Positions 3,034 to 16,579 of a stretch of DNA of 64,000 nucleotides are shown here, piece after piece; positions within the stretch are counted from its first letter, which is position 1; each line of letters starts with the position of its first letter. A program made the position numbers and the translations under genes. Where the stretch lies: contig NZ_JACCBV010000001.1 in assembly GCF_013409785.1 (NCBI RefSeq), positions 1,116,001-1,180,000 of the forward strand, given 5' to 3'. The DNA is from Microbacterium immunditiarum. GTDB taxonomy: Bacteria; Actinomycetota; Actinomycetes; Actinomycetales; Microbacteriaceae. The notes under the pieces are model-generated. The model was not told the origin of the DNA and did no database searches. It saw only the letters and a program-made list of their open reading frames with translations.

Positions 3034-4251
3034 ATGGATTTGTCACCCCTTTCTGGTATTCGGGTTGTTGATTTAACACAATATGAGGCAGGAACTTCGT
3101 GTACGCAGAGCCTGGCATGGCTCGGTGCGGAGGTCATCAAGATCGAGTCGCCTCGGTACGGAGAGCAGGGGCGCATATCCTCTCGCGATATCCCGGGCAT
3201 TGATTCGCCATACTTCTTGCTGCTGAACGCGAATAAGCAGAGTGTCGCCCTGGACCTGAAAAGCGAGCAGGGAAAGAAGATCATCAGGAAACTGATCGAG
3301 ACTGCCGACGTCTTTGTGGAGAACTTCGGACCAGGGTCGATTGAGCGCCTGGGGCTGAGCTACGACGATGTTGCGGCCATAAACCCTCGCATCATCTACG
3401 GCACCATCAAGGGCTACGACCCGGAGGGTCCTTATGGCACCTACCTTTCAATGGATCCGATCGGGCAGGCGATGGGCGGCTCCATCGCGATCACTGGTCT
3501 TCCGGACGGGACGCCGGTGCGTCCTGGACCGACTATGGCTGATACGGGAAGCGGTCTGCATCTCACGATCGGTATCCTCGCTGCCCTCAGAGAGCGGGAT
3601 ACCAGCGGGGAAGGCCAGAAGGTGTCGGTATCCATGCAGGAAGCGATGATCAACTTCTGTCGCATTTCGTATTCTCGGACGATATCGGCCGGTGATCGCC
3701 CTGTTGAACGCGCCGGCAGCGGTATGGGCCTGAAGGCGGCTCCGGCGCGTCTCTATGTCTGCAAGCCAGGTGGACCAAACGACTATATATACGTGTATGC
3801 GTCGAGGACGCCCCAGAGTCGGCATTGGGACCGCATTCTGGAGACTATCGGTCGAGAGGATCTGAAGGGCGACCCCCGCTTCGCGACGGCAGAGAGCCGC
3901 TGGGAACACAGGGAGATCGTCGATGGGATCATCTCGGAGTGGACTGGGCAGCGTACGAAGATCGAGGCAGTTCATGCTCTCGCGGGTGCGGGGGTTCCGG
4001 CCGGTGCTGTCATGAATCCTGCAGAACTCGCCGAAGATCCGCATCTGAACTCCAACGGCGCGTTCGTCAAGGTGTCCCGTCCGGACCGCGGCGAATACAA
4101 GATGCCCGGGTGGCCGGTGAAGATGTCTCGCTGGAAGCCCACGATCGTAGCCGCACCCACTCTGGGGGCTAATACTCGCGAGGTCCTGTCGACCCTCGTG
4201 GATGTCACCGACGCTGAGTTGGACCAGCTCGAATCCGACGGAGTGATCTAA
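3034..4251 (+). CDS. Class III (CaiB/BaiF) CoA-transferase
   Basis: A 405-residue family III CoA-transferase, related to formyl-CoA:oxalate CoA-transferase. These enzymes move CoA between carboxylic acids through an acyl-aspartate intermediate and work as interlocked dimers. The N-terminus GIRVVDLTQYEAGT and the catalytic Asp (D170 in MADTGSG, matching D169 of Frc) are present. A GGAGG box sits very close to the ATG. It is 84 bp before the ThDP lyase. The pairing suggests that it makes a 2-hydroxyacyl-CoA, possibly using formyl-CoA as donor. Codon usage is less GC-rich than in the later parts of the window. Confidence 0.9.
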   Translation: MDLSPLSGIRVVDLTQYEAGTSCTQSLAWLGAEVIKIESPRYGEQGRISSRDIPGIDSPYFLLLNANKQSVALDLKSEQGKKIIRKLIETADVFVENFGPGSIERLGLSYDDVAAINPRIIYGTIKGYDPEGPYGTYLSMDPIGQAMGGSIAITGLPDGTPVRPGPTMADTGSGLHLTIGILAALRERDTSGEGQKVSVSMQEAMINFCRISYSRTISAGDRPVERAGSGMGLKAAPARLYVCKPGGPNDYIYVYASRTPQSRHWDRILETIGREDLKGDPRFATAESRWEHREIVDGIISEWTGQRTKIEAVHALAGAGVPAGAVMNPAELAEDPHLNSNGAFVKVSRPDRGEYKMPGWPVKMSRWKPTIVAAPTLGANTREVLSTLVDVTDAELDQLESDGVI

Positions 4252-4335
4252 GGGCGGCTTCCACGCTGCCGAATGCCGTTCGGGACGCGAGCGGTTAGCG
4301 ATGCGTGCTGTGAGCGCGCGGAGACGAAGGTACTG

Positions 4336-5982
4336 ATGAGTGGTAATGACATGGTGAGCGGATACGAGCTGGTCGCTGAGACCGTTCGTGCATACGGTAT
4401 TGATGACTGCTACTTCTTGATGGGCGGCCCAACCATCGATCTCGCCAACGAGATGGAGCGGTTGGGCACACGTATGGTAGACGTCCGACACGAGCAGGCT
4501 GCGGTGATGATGGCACACTCGTCGGCGGTCCTCAGGCAACGGGTCGCATTGGCGATGTGCTGTTCAGGGCCCGGTTTCACGAACACGCTGACGGGCATTG
4601 CGAATGCGTATGCCGACGGCGTGCCCGTCGTCGTTCTCGGCGGATCATCGAGAATGTCGGACTACGGTCGCGGAGGCTTTCAAGAACTGGATCAAGTGAG
4701 ATTGGCCGAGCCGGTGACGACATGGTCTGTGAGGGTACAGGAAACGCGCCGGATCCCGGACATACTCACCAAGGCCTTTGCGCGCGCGCTGGGTCCATCG
4801 TCGGGACCCGTGTACGTGGATCTGCCGGGTGACGTGCTGTATGGAAAGGTGTCACGCGAAGACGTTCTCCCGGTGTCGGCGTATACAGTCGACGGTCCCC
4901 TGAGGTCATTGGCGGATGCTGACGCGGTGAGAGAGGCGGCCGAACTGATCGCCGCCGCGGAGCGTCCGGTCGTGATCGCCGGGAACGGAGCGCTCTGGTC
5001 CGAAGCGGGTGACGTGCTGCAGAAGTGGTTGAACGACACCGGCATCCCGGTATACGTGATGCCCCAGGCGCGCGGATTGATCCCTGAAGACCACGAACTC
5101 GCATTGCTCGAGGCCCGGTCCAGTGCGTTCAGGGAAGCTGATCTCGTCATCGTCGCCGGCGCACCGCTGAACTATGCGACGAGTCGGATACAGCCTCCGC
5201 GTTTCAAGCCTGATGTCAAGGTCGTGCAGATCGACAATTCTGCGAGCGAGCTTGGAAGCAGCCGTCACATCGATGTCCCGCTCTTGGGTGATGTGCGTTC
5301 GGTCATCTCGCAGCTCCACGACGCCTACCTCAGCGCCGGTAAGAATCCGAGGCATGAAGATTGGACGAATCGACTCAAGAGCGTCACCGAGGAGAAGCGT
5401 TCGCGGGCCGAGCAGGCCGATTTCGACTCCAGCCCGGCGATGCATCCGATCGAGCTGTGCCGGGTTGTTCGCGATTTTCTCGACAGAGATGCGATCTTGT
5501 GCGTGGACGGACAGGAGATTCTGACCTACGCGCGGCAGACGATCCCGACCTTCTATCCAGGTCACAGGCTCAACTCGGGGACTCTGGGCACGATGGGCGT
5601 CGGACTTCCGTTCGGGGTCGGCGCGAAGGCGACGCGCCCGGACAAGCAGGTCGTCGTGCTTCACGGTGATGGATCGTTCGGCATGAACGCCATGGAATTC
5701 GACACTGCAGTGCGGCACAACCTCCCGGTGATCACCGTCATCAGCAACAACGGCGGATGGACTGCAACGGATCGATACAAGGCTGGCCGAGAGCTCGGGT
5801 ACTCCCGATACGATCTGGTGGCCGAGGCGTTGGGTGGTCACGGTGAGTTCGTGGAGAAGATCGAAGACCTGCTTCCCGCCCTCACCCGAGCCGCGGAAAG
5901 CGGTGTGCCGTCGGTTGTGAACGTGGTCACCGATAAGACGGCACGGGCGGCGACTACACAGTTCACGCGAGACGCGACGTGA
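4336..5982 (+). CDS. ThDP-dependent oxalyl-CoA decarboxylase / 2-hydroxyacyl-CoA lyase family enzyme
   Basis: A 548-residue ThDP enzyme. The cofactor-activating Glu is E53 in VRHEQA, and the Mg/ThDP motif is GDGSFGMN from G444 with NN about 26 residues later. Length and order (Pyr, central, PP domains) match oxalyl-CoA decarboxylase and 2-hydroxyacyl-CoA lyase. The first releases CO2 and formyl-CoA from oxalyl-CoA; the second splits a 2-hydroxyacyl-CoA into formyl-CoA and an aldehyde or ketone. I chose ATG 4336 because GAAGG lies five bases upstream; the frame is open 21 codons further. The aldehyde dehydrogenase in the same set favours the lyase reading, but the two cannot be separated by eye. 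Confidence 0.85.
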   Translation: MSGNDMVSGYELVAETVRAYGIDDCYFLMGGPTIDLANEMERLGTRMVDVRHEQAAVMMAHSSAVLRQRVALAMCCSGPGFTNTLTGIANAYADGVPVVVLGGSSRMSDYGRGGFQELDQVRLAEPVTTWSVRVQETRRIPDILTKAFARALGPSSGPVYVDLPGDVLYGKVSREDVLPVSAYTVDGPLRSLADADAVREAAELIAAAERPVVIAGNGALWSEAGDVLQKWLNDTGIPVYVMPQARGLIPEDHELALLEARSSAFREADLVIVAGAPLNYATSRIQPPRFKPDVKVVQIDNSASELGSSRHIDVPLLGDVRSVISQLHDAYLSAGKNPRHEDWTNRLKSVTEEKRSRAEQADFDSSPAMHPIELCRVVRDFLDRDAILCVDGQEILTYARQTIPTFYPGHRLNSGTLGTMGVGLPFGVGAKATRPDKQVVVLHGDGSFGMNAMEFDTAVRHNLPVITVISNNGGWTATDRYKAGRELGYSRYDLVAEALGGHGEFVEKIEDLLPALTRAAESGVPSVVNVVTDKTARAATTQFTRDAT

Positions 5983-6456: not shown

Positions 6457-8150
6457 CCGCCAGAGCAATCCGCAAGCAGTCTCACGCATCCCGTCGTGGC
6501 ATCTTCCTGCTGTTCTTCGGGCTCATTCTCGCGATGCTCCTCGCCGGGCTTAGTCAGACCGCGCTGAGCGCCGCTATGCCGACAATGGTCGGCGAGCTCG
6601 GTGGCGTAGACCAGATGCTCTGGGTCATGACGGCGTACATCCTGGCATCGACGATCATGATGCCGATCTACGGCAAGATGAGCGACCTCATCGGCCGCAA
6701 GGTCCCCCTTATCGCAGCGATCGTGCTCTTCATGGTGGGCTCGGTGATCGGCGCACTCGCCCCCGACATGGGCATCCTCATCGTGGGCCGCGTTGTGCAG
6801 GGCATCGGCGGCGGCGGCCTCATCATCCTGTCGCAAACCATCATCGCCGCCGTCGTCCCGGCGCGCGAGCGCGGCAAGTACATGGGCATCATGGGCGCGG
6901 TGTTCGCCGTGTCGTCCGTCGCGGGTCCGCTGCTGGGCGGGTGGCTCACAGAGCAGTTCGACTGGCGCTGGGCGTTCTGGATGAATGTACCGCTCGGCCT
7001 CCTCGCCCTCGCCGCGGCGATCTGGCTGCTGCATCTGCCGAAGGGCAGCAACTCCAAGCCGAAGATCGACGTGCTCGGCGTGATGACGATGGCCGGCGCC
7101 ACCACGTCCCTCATTCTGGTGGCGTCGTGGGGCGGCAACGACTACGCGTGGAACTCGCCGGTCATCCTGTGCCTCATCGCGACGACCGTGATCCTGGCGG
7201 CGCTGTTCGTGTTCGTCGAGCGCCGGGCCGCCGAGCCGATCATCCCGCCGGGGCTGTTCCACGACCGCAACTTCAACCTCACGACGGCAGCCGCGCTACT
7301 CGTGGGCGTGACGATGTTCGGCGTGAACGGATATCTCCCCACCTATCTGCAGATGACTCTCGGGGCGGATGCAACGATGGCCGGCATTCTCATGGTGCCG
7401 ATGATGGGCGCGATGCTCGTCTCGTCGGTCGGCAGCGGCTGGCTCGTGAGCGCGTACGGTCGCTACAAGTGGATGCCGATCGCGGGAACGGCGCTGATCG
7501 CGGGTGCGCTCGCACTGCTGCGCACGCTCACTCCCGAAACCCCGCTGTGGCTGTTTTGCAGCTACCTCGGAACGATGGGCATCGGGCTGGGTGTCAACAT
7601 GCAGATCCTCGTGCTCGTCGTGCAGAACTCGTTCACGGACCGGGTCGTGGGCACGGCGACGGCGGCCAACAACTTCTTCCGGCAGATCGGTGCTTCACTC
7701 GGCAGCGCTGTCATCGGAAGCCTGTTCGCGGTGCGGCTCGTCGCCATCATCGGCGAACGGCTTCCCGCCGGTGCATCGGCTCGGGTCGGCGATATCAGCT
7801 CCCTCACACCGCACAGCGTGCTCTCACTCCCTAACCGGCTGCACTCGATCGTCGCGCATGGCTACAACGACGCGCTCGCTCCGCTGTTCCTCGGGATGGT
7901 GCCGCTGGCAGTGATCGCGATGTTGCTCCTCTGCTTCGTCAAGGAGGTTCCGCTCAAGACCACAATCGAGCGCGACATCCTGCCCGATGCGATCAGCGAG
8001 GGTCAGCTCATTATCGAGCACAACGGGGGCGCGGGCGACGCCGACGTGCCTCGCCCTCCGGCCCGGCGATCGAGGCGGGTTACCGACAGTCGTGGATCTC
8101 GTCGCGCAGCCCCCAGCGGATGCCCGACCGGGTCGACGCCGGTGATCTGA
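6453..8150 (+). CDS. DHA2-family (EmrB/QacA-like) MFS drug:H+ antiporter
   Basis: A 565-residue membrane protein with the pattern of the 14-helix DHA2 family, which exports drugs or other toxic compounds using the proton gradient. Motif A appears as GKMSDLIGRK after the second helix, and the helix-5 antiporter motif as AVSSVAGPLLGGWL. The N-terminal LSQTALSAAMPTMVGELG is typical of the family. The last 30 or so residues are Arg/Ser/Pro rich and look like a soluble tail. Its ATG overlaps the stop of the small upstream gene. Confidence 0.92.
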   Translation: MTARAIRKQSHASRRGIFLLFFGLILAMLLAGLSQTALSAAMPTMVGELGGVDQMLWVMTAYILASTIMMPIYGKMSDLIGRKVPLIAAIVLFMVGSVIGALAPDMGILIVGRVVQGIGGGGLIILSQTIIAAVVPARERGKYMGIMGAVFAVSSVAGPLLGGWLTEQFDWRWAFWMNVPLGLLALAAAIWLLHLPKGSNSKPKIDVLGVMTMAGATTSLILVASWGGNDYAWNSPVILCLIATTVILAALFVFVERRAAEPIIPPGLFHDRNFNLTTAAALLVGVTMFGVNGYLPTYLQMTLGADATMAGILMVPMMGAMLVSSVGSGWLVSAYGRYKWMPIAGTALIAGALALLRTLTPETPLWLFCSYLGTMGIGLGVNMQILVLVVQNSFTDRVVGTATAANNFFRQIGASLGSAVIGSLFAVRLVAIIGERLPAGASARVGDISSLTPHSVLSLPNRLHSIVAHGYNDALAPLFLGMVPLAVIAMLLLCFVKEVPLKTTIERDILPDAISEGQLIIEHNGGAGDADVPRPPARRSRRVTDSRGSRRAAPSGCPTGSTPVI

Positions 8151-8573
8151 CACAGCTGTCACCCTTCTCGGTTCGCGTTGACCCGCTCGTCCGCGAGCCG
8201 GCCGCGAAGGACGCCCGATCAGTGTCTGGTCGCGGACGTGCGGGTGCTGGGCCTCCAACGTCAGAGCGCAAGCTCTCCTCTGCGCCATCAAGGGCGTGTT
8301 CTCCGGACGAATCGTGGGTCTCCATCAGCGATCGGATGAAGGCCGTCTGGTCCTCCAGGCGCTCGCGGACTGAGGCAAGCTTCCGTCGGTCTTCGGAACA
8401 CGGGGATCGCAGGCCGTAGCTCTGTCATACGGTCACGTGTTGCGTGCCGTCGGGCGGCCTTTTGACGCGAGTCTGCTTCTGCGGAGGCTCTCCCGCAGCT
8501 TCCCGCCACGGGTCTACAATCCGGTCGAGCGGCCTGGCGCTGGCCGGGGCCGCACGGTCGAAGGGGGTCAGAA
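8151..8573 (+). other. Intergenic stretch without a convincing gene
   Basis: The 423 bp between the efflux pump and the GH3 glucosidase contain no frame with good start signals. On the minus strand around 8280-8400 a short phrase (KLASVRERLEDQTAFIRSL) reads like real protein but is out of frame with the nearest ATG, so a decayed gene is possible. A TACAAT hexamer at 8514-8519 could be the -10 box of the GH3 gene. An AGGGGG ribosome-binding site precedes its ATG. Confidence 0.5.
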
Positions 8574-10739
8574 ATGACGACGACGATCGATGAGAAGGCG
8601 GCCGCCACGCCGGACGACGCCGACCGCAGAGCGCGCGAAGTCGAAGAACAGCTGACGGACGACGAGCGGTTCTCGCTGCTCATCAGCCTGCTCGGATACA
8701 TCCCCGACAGCGCCGTGGGTGGACGCGATCCACGCATCCCGGAGGACGTCACGAACATGAGCGCCGGGTACACGCCCGGCATCCCGCGGCTCGGGATTCC
8801 TGCGATCCAGAGCAGCGACGCCAGCATGGGCATCACCAATCCCGGCTATCGACCTGACGACGAGGGTGCGACGGCGTTTCCGGCTCTGGTCGCGTTGGGG
8901 TCGAGCTTCAATCCGCAGCTGGTGCGGGAGGGCGGTGTGGCGATCGCGCGGGAGGCGCGGAGCCGGGGCTTCAACGTGCAGCTGGCCGGCGGGTGCAATC
9001 TGGCGCGTGACCCGCGCAACGGCCGCAACTTCGAGTACTACTCCGAAGACCCGTACCTGAGCGCGGTGCTTGCCGCGGAGCAGGTCAACGGCATCCAGAG
9101 TCAGGGCGTGGTGTCCACCCTCAAGCACTTCACGCTGAACTGCAACGAGACGAACCGGCACTGGCTGGACGCGGTCATCGATCCGGATGCGCATCGCGAG
9201 TCCGATCTGCTGACATTCCAGATCGCGATCGAGCGGTCGCAGCCGGGTGCGATCATGAGCGGTTACAACAAGATCAACGGCGAGTATGCGGGCGGGAACG
9301 GTCACCTGCTGAACGAGGTGCTCAAGGGGGCGTGGGGTTATCGGGGCTATGTGATGTCCGACTGGGGTGCGACGCCCGAGTGGGACTTCGCGCTCAAGGG
9401 CCTCGATCAGGAGTCGGGTGCCCAGGCCGACACGATGCTGTGGGGCAAAGAGCCCTTCACGGACGAGCTGCGTGCGGCGCACGAGCGAGGGGATCTGCCC
9501 AAGGAACGCCTGTCCGACATGGTGCGGCGGATGCTGCGGGCACTGTTCACCGTAGCCGCCGACCAATGGGGGCCGACGCCCGAGGTCGACATGGCCAGGC
9601 ACGACGAGATCGCCCTCGAGGGCGCTCGCCAGGGGATCGTGCTCCTGAAGAACGACCGGGCCTTGCCGTTGCCGACCGACGAGCCGCTCAAGATCGCCGT
9701 CATCGGCGGCTACGCGCAGCAAGGGGTCATCAGCGGCACCGGCTCGGGTGCCGTCGCCCCGGTGGGCGGGTTCGCCGGCGTCATCAAGATCGGCGGCGCG
9801 GGCGTGATGGGCAAGCACCGCAATCTGTTCCTGTTCCAGCCGTCGCCGCTGGAGGAGCTGACGAAGGCGCTCCCGAACGCAACGTTCGACTTCGACCCCG
9901 GATACACGCCCGCAGAGGCGGCGCTGACGGCGAAGCGGTCCGATGTGGTGATCGCCTTCGGCATCCGCGTGGAAGGTGAAGGGTTCGACAGCGCCGACCT
10001 GTCGCTGCCCTGGGGCCAGGACGCGGTCATCGACGCGGTCGCGGATGCCAACCCGAACACCATCGTCGTGCTCGAGACCGGCAACCCGGCGTCCATGCCG
10101 TGGCGCGGCAAGGTGAAGGCGATCGTGGAAGCGTGGTACCCCGGGCAGGCCGGCGCACGCGCGATCGCCGAGGTGCTCAGCGGCGCGGTGAACCCGTCGG
10201 GACGCCTGCCGATCACGTTCCCGGAGAGCCTCGATCAGCACCCGCGGCCGGAGCTTCCCGGGTTGGGCACGCCGTGGGGCACCCCGGTCACGATCGAGTA
10301 CACGGAGGGTGCGGAGATCGGCTACCGTTGGCACGCGAAGACCGGCGCGAAGCCGATGTACGCGTTCGGTCACGGCCTGAGCTACACCGCGTTCGAGTAC
10401 AGCGACCTCGACGTCGATGGTGGTGACACGATCACCGCGACATTCACCGTCACCAACACCGGCGACCGAGCCGGCGCTGACGTTCCGCAGATCTACCTCA
10501 CCGAAGCCGCCGGCGATGAACGTCGTCGTCTGCTCGGGTTCGAACGCGTAGAGCTCGAGCCCGGAGAATCCCGGCAGGTGTCTCTCGCCGCCGACCCCCG
10601 GGTGCTCGCGCGGTTCGACGGCGCCGCCGGTCAGTGGCGAATCGACGATGGCACCTATCGGGTCGCCCTCGGCAGAAGCGCCGAAGACTTCGTGCTCGAA
10701 ACGGAGGTGGTCCTCGAGGGCCGGCAGTTCGGCCCCTGA
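8574..10739 (+). CDS. GH3 beta-glucosidase (or related beta-glycosidase)
   Basis: A 721-residue GH3 enzyme with no signal peptide, so probably cytoplasmic. It hydrolyses terminal beta-linked sugars by a retaining mechanism. The order is the N-terminal TIM barrel, the alpha/beta sandwich and a C-terminal fibronectin III-like domain (from about HGLSYTAFEYS). The nucleophile is D263 in VMSDWGA. Substrate motifs such as NFEYYSEDP and STLKHFTLN are intact. It stands alone with its own ribosome-binding site and is not near the LacI operators of the later glycan locus. Confidence 0.92.
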   Translation: MTTTIDEKAAATPDDADRRAREVEEQLTDDERFSLLISLLGYIPDSAVGGRDPRIPEDVTNMSAGYTPGIPRLGIPAIQSSDASMGITNPGYRPDDEGATAFPALVALGSSFNPQLVREGGVAIAREARSRGFNVQLAGGCNLARDPRNGRNFEYYSEDPYLSAVLAAEQVNGIQSQGVVSTLKHFTLNCNETNRHWLDAVIDPDAHRESDLLTFQIAIERSQPGAIMSGYNKINGEYAGGNGHLLNEVLKGAWGYRGYVMSDWGATPEWDFALKGLDQESGAQADTMLWGKEPFTDELRAAHERGDLPKERLSDMVRRMLRALFTVAADQWGPTPEVDMARHDEIALEGARQGIVLLKNDRALPLPTDEPLKIAVIGGYAQQGVISGTGSGAVAPVGGFAGVIKIGGAGVMGKHRNLFLFQPSPLEELTKALPNATFDFDPGYTPAEAALTAKRSDVVIAFGIRVEGEGFDSADLSLPWGQDAVIDAVADANPNTIVVLETGNPASMPWRGKVKAIVEAWYPGQAGARAIAEVLSGAVNPSGRLPITFPESLDQHPRPELPGLGTPWGTPVTIEYTEGAEIGYRWHAKTGAKPMYAFGHGLSYTAFEYSDLDVDGGDTITATFTVTNTGDRAGADVPQIYLTEAAGDERRRLLGFERVELEPGESRQVSLAADPRVLARFDGAAGQWRIDDGTYRVALGRSAEDFVLETEVVLEGRQFGP

Positions 10740-10757: not shown

Positions 10758-11351
10758 TCAGCGAAGGGTGATCGCGACGGTTCCGCTGGACCCGTCCACC
10801 GTCAGGACCGCGGCGGCCCTCGCATTCCCAGCGAACACGGCGATGTGGAGCTCGTGGCGCGCGCCCACTGCGAGATCCGTCGTAAACGCCCGATCGAAGT
10901 CCGGATCCTCGAAGGTGGCGAGGTGCCACGCGCCATCGCTGTGACGCATGACGACGTTCAGATACTCCCGCTGACCCGGCCGCAGGTCGAGCGGCGCGAA
11001 GCCTCGGGAGCGGGGAACGCCCGCCCAGCGCAACTGCACCGGATCGACATCCGGGCGCAGCACGCCGTCCGTGTGCACCTCGCTGAGGCGGCCCACACAC
11101 CCCATCGCGGCAGTCTTCCCCACGTTCTCCACGCCCAGCCGGACCCACTCGCCGTCCACGCCATCCGGCCAGGCTTGTGTGACTTCGTCGATCACGGGGC
11201 CGGAGTAACGATGTGGTGGCTCGACTCGCACGGATGGGGCTTCGTGCGCTGCGCTAGAAGCGCTGGGATCGCAGGCGAAACCTCTCTCGTAGAGTTCGGG
11301 TTCGCGCAACGATCGCGCAAACCCGGGAGTCACAGCATCGCGGCAGATCAC
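10758..11351 (-). CDS. Conserved hypothetical protein, possibly N-terminally shortened
   Basis: A 197-codon frame on the minus strand, convergent with the GH3 gene. From about residue 50 the sequence (SGPVIDEVTQAWPDG onward) has balanced composition and alternating hydrophobic stretches expected of a beta-sandwich domain. The first 45 residues are poorer in character and the only start is a GTG right after an in-frame stop. Similar actinobacterial proteins often have a membrane anchor before this domain, so the N-terminus may be lost here. No function can be given. Confidence 0.6.
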   Translation of the reverse strand: MICRDAVTPGFARSLREPELYERGFACDPSASSAAHEAPSVRVEPPHRYSGPVIDEVTQAWPDGVDGEWVRLGVENVGKTAAMGCVGRLSEVHTDGVLRPDVDPVQLRWAGVPRSRGFAPLDLRPGQREYLNVVMRHSDGAWHLATFEDPDFDRAFTTDLAVGARHELHIAVFAGNARAAAVLTVDGSSGTVAITLR

Positions 11352-11421
11352 AGTCGTTCAGGCTGCTCTATCCGGGACTTTCGACCCTGCGACGAGCAGT
11401 TGTCAGACGCAAGGTCGATGC

Positions 11422-11913
11422 ATGACCACGAGAGAACCGAAGCATCGCGCGGGGTCGGCGGTCGGCCGTCGTATCGGCTATTCGGTCGCGGTCGTCGTCA
11501 ATGCGATTCTGCTCACGCTGGTCAATTGGTGGCCCGGATGGGAGGCGCTCCCCTTCGTGACGCGAGCAGCAGCATCCGTCGTCGTCTTCCTCAATGCCGC
11601 GCTCGTCGTCGGCGTGCTTGTCAACCTGGCGAACCTCGTCTTCGATCTTCGCTGGGTCCGTGCGCTCGGAGAGATCATCACGTCAACGGTGAGCCTCGTG
11701 TTCCTCACACAGCTATGGGGCGTGTTCCCCTTCGCCTTCGAGACCAGCCCCATCGACTGGGCCACAGTCGCGCGGGTGGTGACCGGGTTCGCCATTCTCG
11801 GGTGTGTCGTGGGCATCGTCGTGCAGTCCGTTCTGCTCGCGCGGATTCTTCTGGGGTTGAATGCGGAGAGCGAATCCTCCAGGGTGCCATCGCCCGGGTC
11901 GCCTCGGTCATGA
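11422..11913 (+). CDS. Small four-helix membrane protein
   Basis: A 163-residue protein with four predicted transmembrane segments: about 20-37 (IGYSVAVVVNAILLTLVNW), 48-70, 82-105 and 115-145. The C-terminal tail is short and Ser-rich. No catalytic motif is visible and the family is unknown to me. It ends 24 bp before the WS/DGAT acyltransferase on the same strand and may be co-transcribed. The ribosome-binding site is weak. Confidence 0.75.
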   Translation: MTTREPKHRAGSAVGRRIGYSVAVVVNAILLTLVNWWPGWEALPFVTRAAASVVVFLNAALVVGVLVNLANLVFDLRWVRALGEIITSTVSLVFLTQLWGVFPFAFETSPIDWATVARVVTGFAILGCVVGIVVQSVLLARILLGLNAESESSRVPSPGSPRS

Positions 11914-11937
11914 GTTCGCCCGTTTGACGGAGGACTC

Positions 11938-13200
11938 GTGCACCGGGACCGAGCATTGCGAGCGGTCGACGAGGCCAATCTGGTTCTCGACCATGCCGGG
12001 CAGGTCAACGTCTTCCTCGTCGCAGGGATGCTCACCTCAGGTGGCTTCGTCCGGCCAGGTGGACGGCTTGATCTGGACGCTGTTCGAACCGCCGTGGCAC
12101 GCCGAGTCGCCGACCTTCCGGCGCTGCGCCAGGTGCCATCCCGGGTGGGCCGATGGCACGAGTGGCGAGACCAGGACCCAGACATCGCACTCCACGTTCG
12201 AGCTCTTCCCGCAATCGACAGCCTGCATGATCTCGAGCGGCACTGTGGGAACCTGATGGCCGAACCGCTGCCCCGCACTCGACCGCTCTGGGAGCTTCTC
12301 GTGGCGCCGAGGCGGGGCGGCGGTGGCGCCATGATCCTCAGGATTCACCACGCCATCGCCGATGGCATGGCCGCAGCCGACCTGATCCGGCGGTTGCTGG
12401 AAGACGTCTCGGCACCTGCGGGCCCGGCGGCCACGCCGCCCACCGTGTGGCTCCCGCCAGAGCCGGTGGCGTCTCCTCCAGGGATTCGGCTCCGCCGCCT
12501 TCTGATCGGGATACGGCGGATCGCCACGACGCTCGCTGCCCACGGCCTGCCGGAGTCGGTTCTGCTGGGTGAGCGCAGCGACCGTCACGGCGTGATCTTC
12601 GTGGACGCCGACCTCGGTGTCATAGCAGAGCGAGCACACCGAGCATCCGCCACGGTGAACGACGTCGTGCTTGCCGTCGCCGCTGCGGGGTACCGAGCCG
12701 CGCTGAGCGCATCGGGCGGCTCCGTTCCCTCCCGACTGCCGGTATCGGTTCCGGTCGCGCTCCCGCGCAAGACCGGGACCCGCAACGAGGTCGGTGTGAT
12801 GCTGGTGCGGCTGCCGCTCACGGCCCCCTCGCCGGACGACGCGCTGACGTTGATCGCGGCCCAGACCCGGGTGCAGAAGGTCCAGGCGCGCCGGCAGGGC
12901 ACGCTCGAAATGATGCGCGGGCCCGTGGGCGCACGCATCATGGATCGCATCGCGATGAGCCAGCACCTGGTGGGCGGCTTCGTCACCAACGTGCCGGGAC
13001 CCGATCACCGCATCGGGCTGGCGGGCGCCGCGTTGTCGCAGATCTGGCCCGTCGCCGTGCTCGCGGCCAACGTGCGGTTGGGTGTGGCGGCCGTCTCCTA
13101 CGCCGGCCAGTTGTGCTGCGGCATCCACTTCGATGCGGAGTACATCGACGGCGAGGCCGTGGCTGCCGCGGTGCGCGGCGAATTCGACACGTTCACGTGA
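11938..13200 (+). CDS. WS/DGAT-type acyltransferase
   Basis: A 420-residue member of the wax ester synthase/diacylglycerol acyltransferase family, which joins acyl-CoA to long-chain alcohols or diacylglycerol. The catalytic HHxxxDG motif is HHAIADG at 137-143. The C-terminal half carries the NVPGPDH element also typical of the family. Start is GTG 11938, with GGAGG four bases upstream. Neighbours are a small membrane protein and a conserved 227-residue protein. The natural substrate cannot be read from sequence. Confidence 0.9.
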   Translation: MHRDRALRAVDEANLVLDHAGQVNVFLVAGMLTSGGFVRPGGRLDLDAVRTAVARRVADLPALRQVPSRVGRWHEWRDQDPDIALHVRALPAIDSLHDLERHCGNLMAEPLPRTRPLWELLVAPRRGGGGAMILRIHHAIADGMAAADLIRRLLEDVSAPAGPAATPPTVWLPPEPVASPPGIRLRRLLIGIRRIATTLAAHGLPESVLLGERSDRHGVIFVDADLGVIAERAHRASATVNDVVLAVAAAGYRAALSASGGSVPSRLPVSVPVALPRKTGTRNEVGVMLVRLPLTAPSPDDALTLIAAQTRVQKVQARRQGTLEMMRGPVGARIMDRIAMSQHLVGGFVTNVPGPDHRIGLAGAALSQIWPVAVLAANVRLGVAAVSYAGQLCCGIHFDAEYIDGEAVAAAVRGEFDTFT

Positions 13201-14296: not shown

Positions 14297-14920
14297 ATGT
14301 CCGGTTCAAGCATCGCGATCCGCCGCCCGCCGCTTGTGCCGGCTCTGATATCGCTGCTGCCGACGGCGGCATTCCTTGCCTTCGACGCGTGGCTGGGCCT
14401 CGTTCCGGCGATGATCGCGGCCAGCGTCCTCACGGTCGTCCTGATCGTCGTCCGCCGGATGGCGGGCCGCCGAACCGGGATCCTCCTGCCCCTGGGTCTC
14501 ACATACGTGGTGCTCAAGGCGGTCGCCGGCATCCTCACCCAGTCGCACGTGGTCTACTTCGGCGCAGGCGTGGCTCTCAGCGCGCTGATCGCGGTCGCGG
14601 TCGGGGCCACGGCCTTCACGCGCAGGCCTGTTGCCTCGTTCCTGATCCCACTCGTGACGCCGTATCGCCGGCTGACTCCCGACCACCCCGTCTACCGGCG
14701 CGTCGCAGCCCACGTCACCGCGGTGTGGGCCGTGGTCGAGCTCGGTATCGCCGGGTGGGAGGGGTGGCATCTCACGGTCGCCTCGGTATCCGAATTCGTG
14801 ATCATGCGGACGGTCGGTCCGTGGATGGCGATGGGCGTGCTCATCTTCTTCCTGATCTTCTACGTGCGCTTCCGGCTCGACCGGTACGAGTGGGCTCTGA
14901 CCCGTGAGGAGAGGGGTTAA
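14297..14920 (+). CDS. DUF3159-type membrane protein
   Basis: A 207-residue membrane protein with about five to six hydrophobic helices, starting at ALISLLPTAAFLAFDAWLG and ending with ILIFFLIFYVRFRLDRY. The layout matches the DUF3159 family of actinobacterial integral membrane proteins. The function is unknown. It ends 66 bp before the cytochrome b paralogue. The ribosome-binding site is weak. Confidence 0.75.
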   Translation: MSGSSIAIRRPPLVPALISLLPTAAFLAFDAWLGLVPAMIAASVLTVVLIVVRRMAGRRTGILLPLGLTYVVLKAVAGILTQSHVVYFGAGVALSALIAVAVGATAFTRRPVASFLIPLVTPYRRLTPDHPVYRRVAAHVTAVWAVVELGIAGWEGWHLTVASVSEFVIMRTVGPWMAMGVLIFFLIFYVRFRLDRYEWALTREERG

Positions 14921-14986
14921 GGGGGCGGATGCCTGTCACAGAACGGCACCGGGCGGTGTCTCACAGGTGAGGGCAGGAGGCACACA

Positions 14987-16579
14987 ATGCCAACGATTCT
15001 CGACCGGATGCCGCATCCGTCGTTCACCGACCGTCTCGAGCGCGTCGTCATCCACTCGGCCGCCGGGCGGTGGCTGCAAGCTCGCCGCACGAAGCTCGGG
15101 GCGCGGCGAGCACCGCTGCACTGGACGAACATGTTCGGCGTGATCGCACTCGCGTGCGTCTTCGTGCTGTTCGTAACCGGCGTCATCCTGATGTCCGCGT
15201 ACGCGCCGTCGAGTGGGGCCGTGACGTACCACGGCCCCTACGTGCCGCTGGCCGGGGCGGAGATGTCGAAGGCCCTCGAGTCGACGCTCTTCATCTCGTT
15301 CGAGATGCCCGGAGGGATCCTGCTGCGCCAGACGCACCACTGGGCCGCGCTGCTCCTGCCGGCCGCGATCATGCTGCAGCTGGTCGTCGCGTTCTTCACG
15401 GGCGCGTTCCGCCGGCCCCGCCGTCTGTCGTGGCTGCTGCTGTTCGGGCTCCTGATCGCCGCGCTCCTCGGCGGCTGGAGCGGCTACGCGCTGCCGGACG
15501 ACATGCTCTCCGGGACCGGACTGCGAATCGTCGAGGGCATCATGCTCGGCATCCCCGTGATCGGCACCTGGCTGTCGCGGCTGCTGTTCGGGGGTGAGTT
15601 CCCCGGGCAGATCATCGAGAACCTGTATCCGCTCCACCTCGGCGCGGGCGTGCTGCTCGTCGTGCTGCTGATCTGGCGGTGGCGAGACGCGTACGCCCAC
15701 GAGCCGGCGCAGTTCCCGGGGAACGACCGCACGGTCCCCGCCTGGCCGAACTTCGCCGTCCGTGCCGGCGGGCTCTTCGCCGCGACGACCGGTCTGCTCT
15801 TCCTCATCGGCGGCACCGTGACGATCGCTCCCGTGTGGCTGTACGGCCCGGCGTCTCCCGGCGACGCATCCGCCGGGAGCCAGCCGGACTGGTACACCGG
15901 GTTCCTCGATGGAGCACTGCGCCTGGTGCCACCGGGCTGGGAGTTCGAGTGGCTCGACCGCACCTGGACGCTCGCCGTCATCGTGCCGCTCCTCGTCGTC
16001 GGCGCATTCCTCTTCCTCGTGGCGGTGTATCCGTTCGTCGAGGAATGGGTGAGCGGCGACTCCCGTGAGCACCACACGCTGGATCGGCCGCGGAACGTGC
16101 CCATCCGCACGGGCATCGGAGTCGCAGGCATCGTCTTCTTCGGGGTGCTCTGGGGTGCGGGCGGTGCCGACGTGATCGCCACCCAGCTGAGCTTCCCGCT
16201 GGAGGGCGTGATCACCACCTTCCAGGTGCTCGTGCCCCTCGGGCCGATCGTCGCGTTCGACGTCACCCGTCGCGTGTGCGTCGCCCTCCAGAAGAAGGAG
16301 CGCGAGATGCTGCTGCACGGCTACGAGACCGGCCGGATCGTGCGGCTCCCGGGCGGCGGATACCTGGAAGTCCACCGCGAGCTGGACGCGCAGGACCGCG
16401 ATCGGCTCGTCGGTCCCGCACCGGTCGAGCCCTTCGTCGCCCGGCCCGACCGGGATGGCCGCGTGCACCTCGTGAGCCGCGTGCGAGCTCGCGCGTCGCG
16501 CTTCTTCCACCAGGACCGGCTGACTCCGCTGGGCGGACAGTCTCGGCCGGCGCTTCGCGCGGGCGAGCAGAGCCGCTGA
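14987..16579 (+). CDS. Stand-alone QcrB-like cytochrome b paralogue lacking bH heme ligands
   Basis: A 530-residue membrane protein of the actinobacterial bc1-type cytochrome b family (menaquinol oxidation). Kept are the first helix-B His (H117 in QTHHWAA), the first helix-D His (H217 in LYPLHLG), SGYALPDDMLSGTGLRI and the Qo-site PDWY in SQPDWYTGF. The partner histidines expected about 14 residues later are missing: Q131 replaces one, and R231/W232 sit where the other should be. Heme bL can therefore bind but bH probably cannot. No QcrA, QcrC or oxidase subunit is adjacent. An AGGAGG box precedes the ATG. The protein ends in an unusual basic tail. Confidence 0.85.
   Translation: MPTILDRMPHPSFTDRLERVVIHSAAGRWLQARRTKLGARRAPLHWTNMFGVIALACVFVLFVTGVILMSAYAPSSGAVTYHGPYVPLAGAEMSKALESTLFISFEMPGGILLRQTHHWAALLLPAAIMLQLVVAFFTGAFRRPRRLSWLLLFGLLIAALLGGWSGYALPDDMLSGTGLRIVEGIMLGIPVIGTWLSRLLFGGEFPGQIIENLYPLHLGAGVLLVVLLIWRWRDAYAHEPAQFPGNDRTVPAWPNFAVRAGGLFAATTGLLFLIGGTVTIAPVWLYGPASPGDASAGSQPDWYTGFLDGALRLVPPGWEFEWLDRTWTLAVIVPLLVVGAFLFLVAVYPFVEEWVSGDSREHHTLDRPRNVPIRTGIGVAGIVFFGVLWGAGGADVIATQLSFPLEGVITTFQVLVPLGPIVAFDVTRRVCVALQKKEREMLLHGYETGRIVRLPGGGYLEVHRELDAQDRDRLVGPAPVEPFVARPDRDGRVHLVSRVRARASRFFHQDRLTPLGGQSRPALRAGEQSR

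Follow-up and report, generated by a model that had tools for sequence, protein, structure and literature searches.

Cytochrome b is taken as a two-heme transmembrane wire, and this wire is the basis of the Q cycle. In the window, by which we mean the whole stretch of 64,000 nucleotides of Microbacterium immunditiarum DNA that was analysed, a gene at 14987..16579 (+) encodes a QcrB-like protein of 530 amino acids that seems to have kept only the half of this wire around heme bL. This raises the questions whether the loss of the bH site is genuine, whether it is shared with other proteins, and what such a protein may do in the respiratory chain.

The gene is preceded by a Shine-Dalgarno sequence (AGGAGG at 14975..14980, +), read from the sequence 6 nt 5' of the start codon. 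The product has the cytochrome b fold of the actinobacterial type and scores 493.6 bits with the NCBIfam model NF050120 (QcrB), below the curated cut-off of 500. A canonical QcrB predicted as a single chain for control reached a pLDDT of 73.4 from a 23-row alignment, and this control model was weaker than the model of the window protein.

Loss of the bH ligands as a family trait

The preliminary description had noted that H117, H217 and the PDWY motif are present and that both bH ligands are replaced. The bL ligands by alignment, H117 in helix B (15335..15337, +) and H217 in helix D (15635..15637, +), and the PDWY Qo motif at residues 300-303 (15884..15895, +) are intact in the window copy, and all three were found in 120/120 of the homologues in our alignment, which consisted of the best 120 of 7598 database matches. 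The alignment places Q131 (15377..15379, +) and R231 (15677..15679, +) at the bH-ligand positions of helices B and D, respectively, with a one-residue deletion just before R231 in the window copy. Among the same 120 homologues, Q131 was conserved in 120/120 and R231 in 116/120 (the others being 2 K, 1 Q and 1 W). At the level of sequence, the observation of the lost bH ligands is confirmed and extends from one gene to a family, and the orthologue search found the same losses as a conserved trait in several actinobacterial families. The loss of both ligands also supports the earlier statement that electrons could not take the standard route between bL and bH.

The homologue alignment ruled out a misalignment and also a histidine in helix B or D that might rescue bH binding, as neither another histidine nor a gapped placement restores the bH ligands. 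In the 41 rows of the clade defined below, the stretches 123-137 and 223-239 contain no histidine apart from residues 236-238 (238 in 22 rows), and these histidines are located at or just beyond the end of helix D.

We designated the window gene and its homologues with Q131/R231-type bH-ligand positions as the QR clade. Among the best 80 genome-contig loci, 36 carry Q131, of which 35 carry R231 and one (L035) carries W. Hosts named in the records include Agromyces, Leifsonia, Microbacterium, Okibacterium, Humibacter, Pseudolysinimonas, Promicromonospora, Isoptericola, Myceligenerans, Antribacter, Pseudactinotalea, Microlunatus and Nocardioides. In a tree of 89 rows, a single branch (SH-aLRT 100) separates 44 QR rows from 45 canonical rows. 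A clearly QR-like match by score was found in 11/150 genomes of the window's family, Microbacteriaceae, including that of the window, and the ligands were read in eight of the 11. In a sample of 394 genomes of the class, the 30 best matches comprised 5 QR genes (one of them that of the window) and 25 canonical ones; 5/394 is a lower bound, because it covers the best 30 matches and the cut-off missed the second clade described below. A second QcrB with a canonical score was present in 28/28 host genomes tested, and it had all four histidines (HHHH) in 12/12 cases read.

The dN/dS ratio of QR genes in nine genome pairs, some of which share a genome and none of which includes the window, was 0.20-0.43, and the canonical QcrB genes from these genomes gave 0.07-0.20. 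The value of QR was higher in 9/9 pairs, about 1.3 to 5 times. These ratios clearly point to purifying selection on the QR genes, with weaker constraint than on canonical QcrB. A lone mutation, a sequencing error and a pseudogene were ruled out by the family-wide pattern together with dN/dS. The raised dN/dS and the patchy distribution (at least 5/394 class genomes among the best 30 matches read) would suit a decaying, functionless duplicate of QcrB, which we nevertheless regard as extremely unlikely, because the Q/R pair is fixed, position 152 is fixed as Leu or Trp (see below), dN/dS stays well under 1, and the clade sits on one branch and is accompanied by a co-inherited clade of the type II NADH dehydrogenase (NADH:quinone oxidoreductase) NDH-2.

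A second clade without bH ligands

In nine multi-copy genomes, 28 QcrB copies were read: 26 were HHHH, including all those of the family f26, and 2 were divergent copies of the pattern H/Q/H/R. Relatives of these two copies, collected from 345 genomes of that order, constitute what we call the S clade, of which 50 loci were read; the closer ones were grouped as S1 (31 loci) and the rest as S2 (19 loci). H117 and H217 are conserved in 50/50 of the S loci, Q131 in 46/50 (three H and one L) and R231 in 49/50 (one L). When both ligand columns were masked, 19 QR and 2 S rows were placed together against 32 canonical rows with support of 91/94, suggesting that QR and S likely had one origin. With regard to NF050120, an S1 member scored 474.6 bits, also below 500, and two S2 members scored 529.4 and 576.4 bits, above it.

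In S2 (L243-L261), PGWY replaces PDWY in 13/19 rows, so that the Qo acid is lost, which may represent a further step away from quinol oxidation. Three S2 loci (L245, L247 and L257) keep H131 and have R231. One further bH-less locus among the best 80, L016:9890-11479 from a MAG, shows the pattern H/H/H/Y, that is H131/Y231, with A51 and V152, and a canonical qcrCAB is located some 7 kb off. These four loci are possible intermediates or alternative routes of bH loss.

The bH and bL pockets

Judging from position, we take the glycines at 51 and 152 to be on the bH side and those at 65 and 166 on the bL side. In cytochrome b6, the hemes are packed against conserved glycines on ligand-free helices, a packing described as crucial (PMC5730185). 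At position 152, all 96 canonical rows have Gly, all 41 QR rows Leu and all 50 S rows Trp; by alignment, L152 of the window protein (15440..15442, +) replaces the bH-side packing glycine of helix C. The other bH-side position, G51 in helix A (15137..15139, +), is Gly in 41/41 QR rows, and Ala is found there in 30/31 S1 and 6/19 S2 rows. Accordingly, the bH-side packing glycines of helices A and C that belong to a di-heme QcrB are not both in place in the window protein. On the other hand, the bL set of a di-heme QcrB, the two bL histidines and the bL-side glycines, is complete: G65 in helix A (15179..15181, +) and G166 in helix C (15482..15484, +) are Gly in 91/91 bH-less rows (41 QR and 50 S). 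The bL ligands and bL glycines are invariant in the compared rows, and PDWY is invariant in QR and S1. R134 and H240, which are invariant in canonical rows, are both lost in QR, and R134 is kept in S (50/50).

The divergence of QR from canonical QcrB was compared by segment identity, with helix and loop borders drawn by hand. On the outer side, QR-versus-canonical identity was 0.70 for the outer half of helix B, 0.58 for the CD loop and 0.56 for the EF loop, compared with 0.79, 0.67 and 0.64 among canonical proteins themselves. The inner halves of helices B, C, D and E showed 0.28, 0.19, 0.22 and 0.36, compared with 0.65, 0.48, 0.49 and 0.84 among canonical ones. This contrast between outer and inner segments is not total: some outer segments also diverged in QR (AB loop, 0.46 vs 0.62; outer half of helix E, 0.38 vs 0.54), the inner FG loop diverged little (0.61 vs 0.71), and in S1 the inner half of helix C stays near canonical (0.43 vs 0.49). 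The two Qo-side loops, CD and EF, show stronger conservation within QR (0.73 and 0.76) than among canonical proteins (0.67 and 0.64). From the sequences, the bH pocket looks closed or filled and the bL pocket kept.

Since both bH ligands and the bH packing glycine are lost in a fixed manner, and the bL ligands and glycines, PDWY and the CD and EF loops are retained, a bL-only, single-heme architecture is very likely. What this family is for is a more tentative matter. Our best explanation, held at a little under even confidence, is that these proteins are bL-only paralogues of QcrB, in which the outer half with the Qo site would be kept and the bH site and the inner quinone site would be dismantled and filled, and that they act as membrane partners of NDH-2 and probably pair with the canonical bcc complex.

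Among the three roles proposed in the preliminary description, the single-heme oxidoreductase fares best. The menaquinol sensor and the assembly factor explain less, because conservation of the Qo-side loops is higher in QR than in canonical proteins, and no positive evidence was found for an assembly factor.

Genomic neighbours

The earlier remark that no bc1 partners are encoded nearby holds for the window, where qcrC and qcrA are not beside the gene. Both genes are found nearby in 40/43 canonical loci, in 1/46 QR loci (L016, some 7 kb away) and in 0/50 S loci, 29 of which have flanks of only about 1.5 kb. A second Rieske protein that serves the bH-less QcrB was considered and rejected: the genome has four Rieske domains, of which one is in the qcr operon and none is in the window.

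The 46 QR loci consist of 36 of the best 80, L016, eight further genome stretches and the window, after the duplicates L157 and L158 were dropped. An NDH-2 gene is located directly upstream on the same strand in 19/46 of them (L033 is one of the QR loci with NDH-2), and at most 191 bp separate both matches of such a pair. The corresponding count is 0/44 for canonical loci, of which 36/44 have at least 1.6 kb on each side. This partner is a Pyr_redox_2 flavoprotein according to domain searches in the other genomes, and the QR-linked copies inspected retain a C-terminal region of their own. In a tree, 17 distinct QR-adjacent NDH-2s group as a single clade (98/92), separate from 15 other NDH-2s of Microbacteriaceae, and five Microbacteriaceae genomes with the gene pair carry both kinds. 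Nocardioides terrae has a sister NDH-2 about 12 kb from the bH-less cytochrome b. The NDH-2 neighbour is absent in 27/46 QR loci and none is beside the window gene; the only NDH-2 match in the window genome is at 2.00 Mb, 870 kb away.

Similarly, an NDH-2-like flavoprotein is encoded directly downstream in 15/31 S1 loci, where one locus (L238) ends 394 bp past the bH-less gene, so that a downstream NDH-2 could not show there. This flavoprotein is about 31% identical to the QR-linked NDH-2, matches the NDH-2 of C. thermarum over 352 residues (125.8 bits), and stops before the C-terminal membrane anchor in 11/11 read of the 15. An example is L210:6559-7617 (-), and the homologues are about 353-369 amino acids long. 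In the same locus, the bH-less QcrB (7617-9005, -) and a canonical QcrB (10808-12325, -) share a strand and lie some 1.8 kb from each other. An FAD monooxygenase-like gene separates the two, and sigma-factor-like genes occur nearby; this is a candidate locus for a mixed dimer, as discussed below. No consistent neighbour gene was found in S2.

Among 396 genomes of the window's order, seven match the QR-linked NDH-2 at E <= 1e-185. Four of the seven (L263-L266) have canonical QcrB as their only QcrB, which argues against strict pairing. In L266, genes for an ECF sigma factor and an NmrA-like protein adjoin the NDH-2 relative, both named by sequence reading alone.

Regulatory genes also recur. 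A cluster with a SigJ-type sigma factor was found in 13/38 QR loci, weak SnoaL-like proteins and NmrA-like ones (the latter by sequence reading alone) recur near QR loci, and similar sigma factors and SnoaL- or NmrA-like genes, named by reading alone, are seen near S1. These neighbours, together with the stand-alone gene and the second QcrB in every host genome tested, would be compatible with a menaquinol redox sensor or a regulatory decoy subunit of the bcc complex. We consider such a role quite improbable, as domain searches found no signalling domain in the window protein, no regulator is consistently linked to the bH-less loci, and the commonest gene directly adjacent to the QR loci is an oxidoreductase.

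Within the window, the gene 66 nt upstream of the cytochrome b gene (14297..14920, +) encodes a 207-amino-acid protein with weak similarity to VC0807 (46.2 bits; cut-off 65) and DUF3159 (24 bits; cut-off 34.2). A gene of this kind was undetected in the 45 other QR loci and in the 50 S loci (29 of these S flanks being about 1.5 kb), and its product is probably not a partner of the bH-less QcrB. Further upstream, positions 11938-13200, three genes from the cytochrome b, encode a wax ester synthase/DGAT-like acyltransferase with WS_DGAT domains. At 3034-5982, a CoA-transferase family III gene is followed 21 nt on by one for a TPP enzyme of three domains; the pair may encode formyl-CoA transferase and oxalyl-CoA decarboxylase for the use of oxalate.

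A possible link between NDH-2 and the bcc complex

The separate links to NDH-2 in QR (upstream) and in S1 (downstream) support our best explanation, and we lean towards a redox role of the bH-less QcrB together with NDH-2. More tentatively, the protein might be an adaptor that forms a mixed dimer with canonical QcrB and plugs NDH-2 into the bcc-aa3 supercomplex. NDH-2 would dock at the rebuilt cytoplasmic face of the bH-less QcrB and make menaquinol there. This menaquinol would be oxidised at the Qo site, with one electron passing to the Rieske centre of the host QcrA and the other to bL. Because no bH is present, the bL electron would have to leave sideways, most likely to the bL of the canonical QcrB in the mixed dimer, and from there it would reach the bH and the quinone site of the canonical partner. 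In genomes where the two genes are not paired, including that of the window, the partner would have to be an NDH-2 from another locus.

Engineered proteins give some precedent for these steps. According to PMC4330944, the bH-ligand mutant H212N, which lacks bH, still reduces bL, and asymmetric dimers transfer electrons from bL to bL. The paper also states that no fused dimer carrying H212N in both halves was obtained, which we count against the best explanation. In Streptomyces coelicolor, the orphan paralogue QcrB3 co-purifies with Nar1 and components of bcc-aa3, according to PMC7931247; the passage concerned does not demonstrate that QcrB3 takes the place of QcrB, and this too is counted against it.

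Our own data also weaken the best explanation at several points: the window copy and 27/46 QR loci are without the NDH-2 neighbour, four of the seven genomes with a high-scoring relative of the QR-linked NDH-2 have canonical QcrB alone, the contrast between outer and inner segments is incomplete, dN/dS is above canonical in all nine pairs, and S2 combines a mostly PGWY motif with the lack of a consistent neighbour. Moreover, helices A and E, which make up much of the dimer interface of cytochrome b, are strongly diverged in QR (0.34-0.38), and this divergence disfavours a mixed dimer.

If no canonical partner is involved, the bH-less QcrB may be a self-contained carrier from NADH to the outside, in which NDH-2 would reduce menaquinone held in the remodelled inner half and the electrons would go directly to bL and be handed over at the Qo face to an outside acceptor such as QcrA or a c-type cytochrome, with no Q cycle. 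The pairing with NDH-2 in two clades with opposite gene order would fit such a carrier, the Gln and Arg conserved in what was the bH pocket could bind the quinone, and the anchor-less NDH-2 of S1 would need a membrane partner. The pocket, however, looks filled by Leu or Trp in place of the packing glycine, and no dedicated electron-acceptor gene is conserved near the bH-less loci; we therefore consider this carrier unlikely.

The gene-pair link and the anchor-less S1 flavoprotein could also be explained if the protein were a membrane anchor of NDH-2 or a platform for menaquinol channelling, with bL and the Qo site being mainly structural and no net redox role. Faster evolution than that of canonical QcrB and the loss of the Qo acid in 13/19 S2 rows point in the same direction. 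We judge this role improbable, because the bL ligands, the bL glycines and PDWY (in QR and S1) are invariant in the compared rows, the EF loop is better conserved within QR (0.76) than among canonical proteins (0.64), and the QR-linked NDH-2s inspected retain their own C-terminal region.

Relation to known systems

One of the closest known systems is QcrB of the bcc-aa3 supercomplex (C. glutamicum, 7qhm; M. smegmatis, 6adq), in which, however, both bH ligands and the packing glycine are intact; the bH-less family differs from it also in the diverged inner half and in its position outside the qcrCAB operon and often beside NDH-2. The H212N mutants of R. capsulatus and R. sphaeroides (PMC4330944) resemble the family in that bH is lacking and bL and the Qo site are kept, but these are laboratory single mutants, whereas the natural family lost both ligands and the packing glycine and shows the linkage to NDH-2. 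Similarly, QcrB2 and QcrB3 of S. coelicolor are stand-alone QcrB paralogues beside a canonical complex (PMC7931247), but unlike the family they are not known to be without bH.

In the usual description, NDH-2 works alone. The flavoprotein adjacent to the bH-less gene belongs to the NDH-2 family (C. thermarum, 4nwz) but, unlike these, is genetically tied to a cytochrome b, and its S1 form is cut before the membrane anchor. Among the papers listed, the closest described system is the Kuenenia Rieske/cytochrome b complex with an NAD(P) reductase (PMC12954380), where cytochrome b is likewise tied to a cytoplasmic NAD(P)H-handling flavoprotein. The Kuenenia complexes keep both b hemes, bN and bP, and have further hemes and FeS-containing reductases, whereas the partner of the bH-less family is a simple NDH-2; neither the bN heme nor an FeS-containing NAD(P) reductase is a feature of this family. 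Among the matches listed, titles and abstract openings in the open-licence PMC literature contained no description of a natural cytochrome b without a bH site.

Finally, these proteins might constitute, as a cautious proposal, a natural class of single-heme Rieske-type cytochrome b in Actinomycetes, that is, a half Q-cycle module paired in two clades with an NDH-2, which has a membrane anchor of its own in one clade and lacks it in the other. This module would couple NADH oxidation to the Qo/bL side without a bH or inner quinone site of its own, either via a mixed dimer or as a separate carrier from NADH to the outside. A conserved one-heme family, rather than an accident in a single strain, would show that the Qo half is reusable alone. 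It would also provide a natural test of Qo/bL chemistry without bH, such as short circuits, radical formation and bL-to-bL transfer, for which engineered mutants have been used so far. The family, which occurs in several groups of soil bacteria, suggests that NDH-2 and the bcc complex may be linked, and these bacteria seem to possess a cut-down form of part of the textbook respiratory chain.
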